Origin: Methanomethylovorans sp.
Lineage (GTDB): Archaea; Halobacteriota; Methanosarcinia; Methanosarcinales; Methanosarcinaceae
DNA: 42,445 bases
Direction: 5' to 3'
Assembly: GCA_014361205.1 (NCBI GenBank)
Contig: JACIVZ010000005.1
Coordinates: 1 to 42,445, forward strand
Shown: positions 28,039 through 30,543 of the stretch, in pieces
Numbering within the stretch: the first letter of the stretch is position 1
Layout of the letters: each line of letters begins with the position of its first letter
Position numbers and translations under genes: made by a program
The notes under the pieces: generated by a model
The model's input: the letters and a program-made list of their open reading frames with translations, nothing else
What the model was told of the DNA's origin: nothing
The model's database searches: none

Positions 28039-28049
28039 CTATATAAAAG
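28039..28049 (+). promoter_or_regulatory. TATA box of the tRNA-Ser gene
   Basis: CTATATAAAAG is centred about 31 nt before the first tRNA base, the expected distance for an archaeal tRNA promoter, and directly follows the EndoQ stop. A small inverted repeat (ATGCC at 28054-28058, GGCAT at 28066-28070) lies between it and the tRNA. Confidence 0.65.
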
Positions 28050-28074: not shown

Positions 28075-28190
28075 GCCGAGGTGGCAGAGCGGACCAATCC
28101 AACGGAGTAAATGCCTAGGAGTCTATATGCGATCGGCTCGAGACCGGTTGCCCCTGAAGGGGTGCTTGGGTTCGAATCCCAACCTCGGCG
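28075..28190 (+). tRNA. tRNA-Ser(CGA) with a probable 30-nt D-arm intron
   Basis: Acceptor stem GCCGAGG (28075-28081) pairs with CCTCGGC (28183-28189), with discriminator G. Anticodon stem ATCGG/CCGGT encloses CTCGAGA, anticodon CGA (28139-28141). The long variable arm GCCCC-TGAA-GGGGT and the T arm TTGGG-TTCGAAT-CCCAA identify a class II serine tRNA. The gene is 116 nt, 30 longer than expected. Removing 28097-28126 gives an 86-nt tRNA with A14, G15, G18, G19 and A21 in place and the D stem GCA/TGC restored. At the junctions GGAC (28091-28094) pairs with GTCT (28121-28124), with 3-nt bulges CAA and ATA and an inner TCC/GGA helix, a bulge-helix-bulge-like arrangement. Intron phase is ambiguous by one or two bases. 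Confidence 0.85.
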
Positions 28191-28269: not shown

Positions 28270-28412
28270 ATGGGACTGTATGACTATAAGAGAAACATCG
28301 CGGCTGCTGAAAAAAAGATAATTGAGGCAGCTTATTCACAAAAAATAAGTATACTATTTTTGCCTTCATCAATGTGTTGTATGCTGAAGGTCTGTCTGAT
28401 GTGAGTGCCTGA
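28270..28412 (+). pseudogene. tyrosine integrase N-terminal fragment, frameshifted
   Basis: ATG 28270 opens MGLYDYKRNIAAAEKKIIEA and the frame is lost within a run of A near 28342. In the next frame it goes on as KYTIFAFINVLYAEGLSDV until TGA 28410-28412. Joined, these give the start of the core-binding domain of archaeal tyrosine recombinases (pattern of N-x-x-T-I-x-x-F ... L-x-x-x-G-L-S). The catalytic domain is missing. It lies 80 bp past the 3' end of tRNA-Ser, the normal place for an integrase of an element that used that tRNA as attachment site. The identification rests on pattern recognition only. Confidence 0.5.
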
Positions 28413-28584
28413 GCCAGACCACCCAGATGTGATATGGGGAATATTCAACGATTTAGCCATTGAAATGATTAGGGCATCCGAATTGATTACGGGAGACTTA
28501 GTGGATTGTATTTTAGTCAAGATATGTTCTTGTATGAAGACAATAAGCCATTTTTTAAGATGCTTCAGGAATCAAATAGAATGA
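28405..28584 (+). pseudogene. protein fragment of unknown origin in the provirus remnant
   Basis: A 59-codon open stretch starts with VPEPDHPDVIWGIFNDLAIE and continues ASELITGDLVDCI to TGA at 28582. It has no ribosome site, begins directly after a stop in the integrase frame, and has protein-like composition. I do not recognise it; its place between an integrase piece and a phage-head-like piece suggests another broken viral gene. Confidence 0.3.
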
Positions 28585-29076: not shown

Positions 29077-30543
29077 TTGGGTAAAATATTGAAAATTATA
29101 CTGTTAGGTTTCGGGGTTTTGATATTAATCGGTATGCTTGCACCCCAATCGGAACAACCTTCTGAGAAACAAAACGATTCTACGAGTCAAATACAATCAA
29201 CTGTACATGACGATGCTCAGCAGATAACTGTAACAACAGCAAAAGAGAACTATTCCGATAAGAAATATTCTTTACCTGAACAAGCTCTATCGCAGAATAC
29301 TCAAACAGACCACGCAGCTGCAGAAAAAACTACCACTGAGCAAACATCTTCAGTCTATCAGAACGGTAACCTTACAGTTCACTTTATAGATGTTGGCCAG
29401 GGAGATTCCATTCTTGTTGAATATGCCGGAAAGACCATGCTCATCGATGCAGGTGAAAAGAACATGGGGTCCACAGTCTCTTCATACCTCAAAAGACAGG
29501 GAATATCCAGCCTTGATTATGTGGTTGCAACCCATCCTCACGCAGATCATATCGGTGGTCTTATAACAATTCTGAACGGATATAATGTAAACAACTTCAT
29601 CGATTCCGGTGTTCCACACACCTCGCAGACATACGAAGACATGCTGACAATAATAGACTCAAAGAACATTCCCTTTCACGTAGCTCAAAGAGGAGAGTAC
29701 ATTAATTTTGCTCCGGGAGTAACTGTCCATATACTTAATCCAGGAAAAGAGCAGTCAGATGATCTTAATGAAAATTCGGTGGTACTCAAGATAACATATG
29801 AAGATATGTCGTTCCTGCTAATGGGAGATGCAGGTATTGAAGCAGAAACAAGCATTATGAACGAAGGTTACGATGTGAATGCGGACATCCTTAAAGTAGG
29901 TCACCACGGCAGTACATCAGCTTCAGGACAAAAGTTCATTTCAGCTGTTAGTCCGGATATTAGTGTTATACAAGTAGGCGCAGGTAATAACTATGGACAT
30001 CCCCACACAGAAATCCTCCAAAGGCTTCAAAGTATATCAGCATTATATAGAACTGATTACCACGGTACAATCAGCGTCACAACAGACGGATCAACATATA
30101 CAGTGACAACTGAAAACATTACTCCTAATAAAAACAGTGCGTATACAACAGATATGTCTGCATCAAGTACTTACACAGCAACCGCGTTCACATCAGAAAG
30201 TGAAAATACCACATATTATTCAACGCCTACTTCAACTTCAGATGAAGGAGTGTATATCACCGGCCTGGACCTTAAGAACGAATGGGTCAAGATTAAAAAT
30301 TTGGGTTCTTCTTCCGTGGATCTCAAGGGCTGGCAGATCAGAGACGAAGGCGATAAACACACTTATACTTTCCCTTCATTCCAGCTGGAAGGGGGTGCAA
30401 CAGTGACTCTATACACCGGAAAGGGAACGAACACCGAAACAGAACTCTATTGGGGTAGTGGTAATCATATCTGGAACAACGACGGAGATACAGCTTATCT
30501 CTATGATAGCAGTGGTAATCTTGTTAGTTCATTAAAGGGATGA
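29077..30543 (+). CDS. ComEC/Rec2-like metallo-beta-lactamase-fold protein with lamin-tail domain
   Basis: A 488-aa exported protein. An N-terminal hydrophobic segment (about 3-22) is followed by a polar Ser/Thr/Gln-rich linker. The MBL domain (about 100-350) begins VHFIDVGQGDSILVEYAGKT and has the metal site THPHADHIGG, MGDAG and KVGHHGSTSAS, as in the C-terminal domain of ComEC. A second Ser/Thr-rich linker leads to a lamin-tail domain (about 390-488) with WVKIKNLGSSSVDLKGWQI and GDTAYLYDSSG. ComEC-type domains degrade DNA outside the cell in competence; free secreted versions have unknown roles. TTG 29077 follows GGTGA. It overlaps the DUF3006 gene by 4 nt. Confidence 0.85.
   Translation: MGKILKIILLGFGVLILIGMLAPQSEQPSEKQNDSTSQIQSTVHDDAQQITVTTAKENYSDKKYSLPEQALSQNTQTDHAAAEKTTTEQTSSVYQNGNLTVHFIDVGQGDSILVEYAGKTMLIDAGEKNMGSTVSSYLKRQGISSLDYVVATHPHADHIGGLITILNGYNVNNFIDSGVPHTSQTYEDMLTIIDSKNIPFHVAQRGEYINFAPGVTVHILNPGKEQSDDLNENSVVLKITYEDMSFLLMGDAGIEAETSIMNEGYDVNADILKVGHHGSTSASGQKFISAVSPDISVIQVGAGNNYGHPHTEILQRLQSISALYRTDYHGTISVTTDGSTYTVTTENITPNKNSAYTTDMSASSTYTATAFTSESENTTYYSTPTSTSDEGVYITGLDLKNEWVKIKNLGSSSVDLKGWQIRDEGDKHTYTFPSFQLEGGATVTLYTGKGTNTETELYWGSGNHIWNNDGDTAYLYDSSGNLVSSLKG

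Follow-up and report, generated by a model that had tools for sequence, protein, structure and literature searches.

We analysed a 42,445-nt stretch of the Methanomethylovorans sp. genome (the window), in which positions 28075–28190 carry a class II serine tRNA gene. Base-by-base reading found all arms present: the acceptor stem GCCGAGG/CCTCGGC, the D-stem GCA/TGC (28084–28086/28128–28130), the anticodon loop CTCGAGA with CGA at 28139–28141, a long variable arm GCCCC/GGGGT and the T-loop TTCGAAT. The preliminary description of this DNA, a 116-nt gene with normal tRNA arms that becomes an 86-nt serine tRNA when positions 28097–28126 are removed, was borne out on both points, as ARAGORN called the shortened 86-mer as tRNA-Ser(CGA). 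It had placed the intron at about 21/22 or 22/23; the A21|A22 junction and the intronless orthologues fix it at 21/22 in standard numbering and not at 22/23, which sets it apart from introns at the canonical position 37/38. The features of the locus are as follows.

28040–28049, + strand: TATA-box-like TATATAAAAG, about 35 nt upstream of the tRNA; identical in 5/5 other genomes of the genus
28075–28190, + strand: tRNA-Ser(CGA) gene, 116 nt including the discriminator base; sole Ser(CGA) gene in the genome
28075–28096, + strand: 5′ exon, G1 to A21; junction from the BHB rule and intronless orthologues
28087–28090, + strand: GAGC, exon strand left unpaired across from the 3′ bulge, forming a 4 × 3 internal loop (sequence and fold)
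28091–28094, + strand: exon strand GGAC of the central 4-bp helix H, pairing with GTCT at 28121–28124; paired in 76/76 distinct homologues
28095–28097, + strand: 5′ 3-nt bulge CAA, predicted cut after 28096; length 3 in homologues
28097–28126, + strand: 30-nt intron at position 21/22, from intronless orthologues and 76 homologous inserts
28098–28120, + strand: inner helix h′ (TCC/GGA) and variable intron apex; at least 3 bp in 76/76, with two-sided changes
28121–28124, + strand: intron strand GTCT of helix H, from homologue comparison
28125–28127, + strand: 3′ 3-nt side ATA, predicted cut after 28126, from homologue comparison
28127–28190, + strand: 3′ exon, A22 to G73, from intronless orthologues and the ARAGORN call after intron removal
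28139–28141, + strand: anticodon CGA, from sequence reading and ARAGORN

The insert has the hallmarks of the bulge–helix–bulge (BHB) class, namely a 4-bp exon–intron helix, two 3-nt single-stranded stretches and a normal tRNA upon removal. The minimum-energy fold of the 116-mer was a cloverleaf whose D-arm bears the insert as a hairpin, and it reproduced exactly the helices and bulges described beforehand (GGAC/GTCT, CAA and ATA, and the inner TCC/GGA helix at 28098–28100/28118–28120). When the 30-mer was shuffled by mononucleotides, the whole geometry survived in only 0.034% of cases (3.4 in 10,000). The exon-side helix does not lie flush against the 3′ bulge as it does in the strict hBHBh′ motif: because GAGC at 28087–28090 is unpaired opposite ATA, the motif is relaxed and HBh′/BHL-like, in agreement with the earlier reading of the exon side. 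The predicted fold, with its stable hairpin on the D-arm, would also suit a tRNA that keeps the extra 30 nt in its mature form as an enlarged D-arm, a reading to which we return with the homologous inserts.

ARAGORN in default mode found no tRNA in the window and, when introns were allowed, found the unspliced Ser(CGA) with its intron placed elsewhere. Rfam at the gathering threshold missed the gene, the best partial match (to the 3′ part) scoring 21 bits against a 29-bit cut-off. A tRNA that looks essential can therefore escape standard gene finders in these genomes, as happened here with ARAGORN and Rfam. Such misses by automatic finders might be taken to indicate a pseudogene, that is, a tRNA gene broken by an insertion. 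This explanation has a practically negligible probability, given that more than 90 species keep the gene with all arms intact, that the promoter is conserved and that the search proposed earlier for a second intact Ser(CGA) gene revealed none in this genome. The assembly (2.15 Mb, 99.85% complete) holds the Ser(CGA) gene once, the remaining serine tRNAs being GCU, GGA and UGA. Introns at the usual place occur in its tRNA-Tyr, a CAU tRNA and tRNA-Trp, indicating that tRNA splicing is in use. The long intron of a tRNA-Trp (L298, C89 of the same genome) contains apparent C/D-box guide RNA motifs; tRNA-Trp introns of this kind are known in other euryarchaea.

Just downstream of the tRNA, window positions 28270–28420 contain a frame-broken remnant (DYKRNIAAAEKKI... 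/ NKYTIFAFINVLYAEGLSD). Inspected by eye, it is similar to the N-terminal part of archaeal tyrosine integrases; a Pfam scan of one piece of this remnant gave no match. Further on, positions 29077–30543 join a metallo-beta-lactamase domain to a C-terminal lamin tail domain.

The alignment of Ser(CGA) genes from relatives that had been suggested as a check strengthened the splicing interpretation. We compared 76 distinct inserts, which were cut out by their exon sequences rather than by the motif, many of the loci having originally been fetched with the motif. All 76 had 4/4 base pairs in H, 3-nt bulges on both sides and an h′ of 3–6 bp, at lengths of 17–47 nt, and loci fetched by similarity instead of by the motif had the same geometry. 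Sliding the pairing partner by one base lowered pairing across the 76 inserts from 1.00 to 0.70–0.71 for h′ and to 0.29–0.50 for H. Pairs 1–3 of h′ showed two-sided changes (T-A/C-G and C-G/T-A), with a further G-C at pair 3 in L303, and pairs 1 and 2 of H varied between G-U and G-C. Much of this covariation comes from Methanothrix, since H and h′ vary little within Methanosarcinaceae; in one insert of the Methanothrix family (L302) the inner helix is imperfect. Both junctions are fixed and the apex is not conserved. With insert lengths of 16–47 nt across the relatives, this combination argues against an enlarged D-arm kept in the mature tRNA.

Searching by similarity detected the gene, in some cases without the intron, in 47 of 60 relatives. 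Of 186 genomes in the order, 81 had the interrupted form by the motif pattern, and a slightly loosened strict pattern recovered it from 92 of 238 genomes in the class; a reversed control pattern gave no match in these pattern searches. Scanning 84,980 species genomes with the pattern yielded 67 stretches, all but one archaeal. The exception, in a Granulosicoccaceae bacterium (L219), was rejected as a chance match, its surroundings being devoid of a tRNA. The intron-bearing named groups are Methanosarcinaceae (Methanolobus, Methanohalophilus, Methanococcoides, Methanosalsum, Methanohalobium, Methanomethylovorans and others), ANME-2, GoM-Arc1/Argoarchaeum and Methanothrix, in addition to one unclassified euryarchaeote; Methanothrix genomes missed by the pattern also carry the D-loop intron. 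What had been expected to be an unusual, isolated case in the Methanosarcinales, the order to which this genome does belong, is instead an old intron spread across much of the class.

Intronless relatives match the predicted splice product. In families f3 and f5 an uninterrupted Ser(CGA) reads GGACTAACGC across the junction, exactly the spliced sequence, and the spliced gene of family f4 differs from these intronless genes by 0–1 base over the first 43 nt. An insert retained in the mature tRNA would not account for sister families that lack it and read precisely this sequence. Family f6 has no D-loop intron in Ser(CGA) and carries an insert at the usual anticodon-loop place. The Methanosarcina-like genera with large genomes (g8, g12 and g2; L121, L123, L126, L115 and L124) have a very different intronless Ser(CGA), beginning GCCCAGG, which suggests that the intron-bearing gene was replaced in these genera and did not lose its intron precisely. 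As to an origin of the Methanosarcina gene from another serine tRNA, its identities to the four of the window's genome, all about 58–66%, do not discriminate. The simplest history would be one old gain before the Methanothrix/Methanosarcinales split, followed by losses.

In most Methanothrix this Ser(CGA) gene is interrupted a second time, by an intron in the T-loop. In the Methanothrix-type family f7 (L275, L277, L280, L284, L296, L301, L303 and L304), the T-loop insert is about 30 nt long, lies at about 59/60 and follows the pattern TTCA-AAA-TGG...CCA-(T/G)GAA-AAT, with a flush T-stem and a central helix of 3–4 bp. If kept, this BHB-type insert would abolish the T-loop. Together with the fixed junctions and the uninterrupted sister genes, it leaves the enlarged D-arm very improbable, and removal of the D-loop insert by splicing is the reading we follow below.

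Other irregularities of Ser(CGA) genes were seen among the relatives. The shortest D-loop intron, 16 nt, is found in Euryarchaeota archaeon OWC_0036 (L218), which also has an oversized variable arm; the sequence of this arm allows one more BHB intron (GATG-CCTT-GAA...GAGG-ATG-CATC). In ANME-2 genomes of family f2 (L030, L046, L097, L299 and L300), broken tandem Ser(CGA) copies lie beside a whole gene and contain an insert of about 62 nt, TCGAAAATCG...CGATTTTCTTATCTTCGGC...GCCTCAG, in the anticodon stem or T arm. This insert resembles a small element, either mobile or related to integration.

We then turned to the splicing endonuclease, EndA. The window's genome encodes it (L050, 1459–2535) as one 358-aa chain with two PF01974 endonuclease domains. 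The best solved-structure match is Archaeoglobus fulgidus EndA (2gjw, 1r0v), to which the FRVY, PHSaYLV and VRKRM motifs correspond and with which the catalytic Tyr, His and Lys regions are conserved; the protein is thus a fused homodimer of the alpha′2 type. All 25 aligned EndA proteins, from the window's genome and 24 sampled relatives outside the Methanothrix family, were of this type, and none of them had a CSL/ASL insert by the active site. The spacing from FYG to LSL is 9 residues, close to the 8 of A. fulgidus and half the 18 of the A. fulgidus+CSL chimera 3p1y, which led us to reject a CSL/ASL-like insert as the explanation for the relaxed substrate. This site is alike in intron-bearing and intronless lineages, and by-eye alignment of the 25 proteins revealed no feature separating the two sets of families. 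The N-terminal, supposedly non-catalytic half is longer than in A. fulgidus EndA, and nearly all members keep a catalytic-like FRVY in it. One genome of genus g11 (G015) gave no EndA match; loss of the enzyme in g11 was rejected, and an assembly gap is most likely because other g11 genomes have EndA.

The enzyme's reach over relaxed motifs is a matter on which reviews contradict each other. Euryarchaeal alpha′2 homodimers are described as restricted to canonical BHB motifs (PMC4033280, PMC12397907) and alpha′2 enzymes are listed as narrow (PMC6379350, Table 1), which, with an EndA devoid of the CSL/ASL insert, would favour a true intron that EndA does not cut alone, for example one for which an unknown factor compensates for the relaxed exon side. 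However, the alpha′2 EndA of A. fulgidus excises a BHL intron located at 37/38 in a full-length pre-tRNA (PMC6379350), and homodimers are stated to cleave BHL-like motifs (PMC8707768). No extra factor is needed, and we consider the involvement of one unlikely.

The conserved junctions, variable apex, intronless sister product, single gene and EndA type all support the non-canonical relaxed BHB intron in the D arm that was originally proposed. In the cloverleaf of the pre-tRNA, G18-G19-A20-C20a would pair with GUCU at the 3′ end of the intron, forming a 4-bp helix flanked by two 3-nt bulges and closed by the intron's own short hairpin. The alpha′2 EndA would cleave between the second and third bases of both bulges (28096/28097 and 28126/28127), leaving a tRNA ligase to join the halves into the 86-nt tRNA. 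EndA would have to accept the relaxed exon side, probably with the substrate held in position by the tRNA body or by the D-stem on the far side of the internal loop. Together, these results allow us to propose with high confidence that 28075–28190 holds a tRNA-Ser(CGA) gene, present once and expressed, whose BHB-class D-loop intron at 21/22 is removed by EndA; expression, cleavage and ligation are inferred.

We favour, with moderate confidence, the broader proposal that throughout a methanogen class relaxed D-loop introns, and in Methanothrix the additional T-loop intron of the same tRNA, are routinely handled by loop-less alpha′2 endonucleases. The accepted picture links non-canonical tRNA introns to endonuclease architecture; if the proposal is true, it contradicts the rule that reserves relaxed motifs for (alpha-beta)2 and epsilon2 enzymes, and tRNA-Ser(CGA) would be a place outside Thermoproteota where introns have long been gained and lost. 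The relaxed-motif question is open to direct test, since about ninety natural substrates exist, sister lineages without the intron share the enzyme type, and the hosts Methanolobus, Methanohalophilus, Methanococcoides and Methanothrix can be cultured.

The class of intron is already known. Within the literature covered, the new elements are its breadth in one methanogen class, the relaxed D-loop form alongside a loop-less alpha′2 enzyme and the two-intron form of Methanothrix; some of these introns may already be listed in databases, because a published BHB model used euryarchaeal examples (PMC8450103). A 2011 paper placed non-canonical introns almost exclusively in Crenarchaeota, with a small number of other lineages, three thermophilic methanogens of the Euryarchaeota among them (PMC3218864). 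The intron shares with strict hBHBh′ introns at 37/38 the 4-bp central helix, the 3-nt bulges, the short intron-side helix and, by prediction, cleavage after the second bulge base; it differs in lying at 21/22 in the D-loop and in having an exon-side 4 × 3 internal loop instead of a flush bulge. Like the relaxed HBh′/BHL introns of Crenarchaeota, D-arm introns among them, it has a relaxed exon side and lies outside the anticodon loop, but those introns go with an (alpha-beta)2 EndA bearing the CSL loop, whereas here the enzyme is alpha′2 without CSL and the host belongs to a euryarchaeal methanogen class. Methanopyrus kandleri and Methanothermobacter thermautotrophicus also have non-canonical tRNA introns and are euryarchaeal methanogens, yet of a different lineage, and the M. 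kandleri enzyme is (alpha-beta)2 (PMC6379350). For euryarchaeal tRNAs with several introns, a review table has only these two species (PMC4033280), whereas most Methanothrix have two introns in Ser(CGA).
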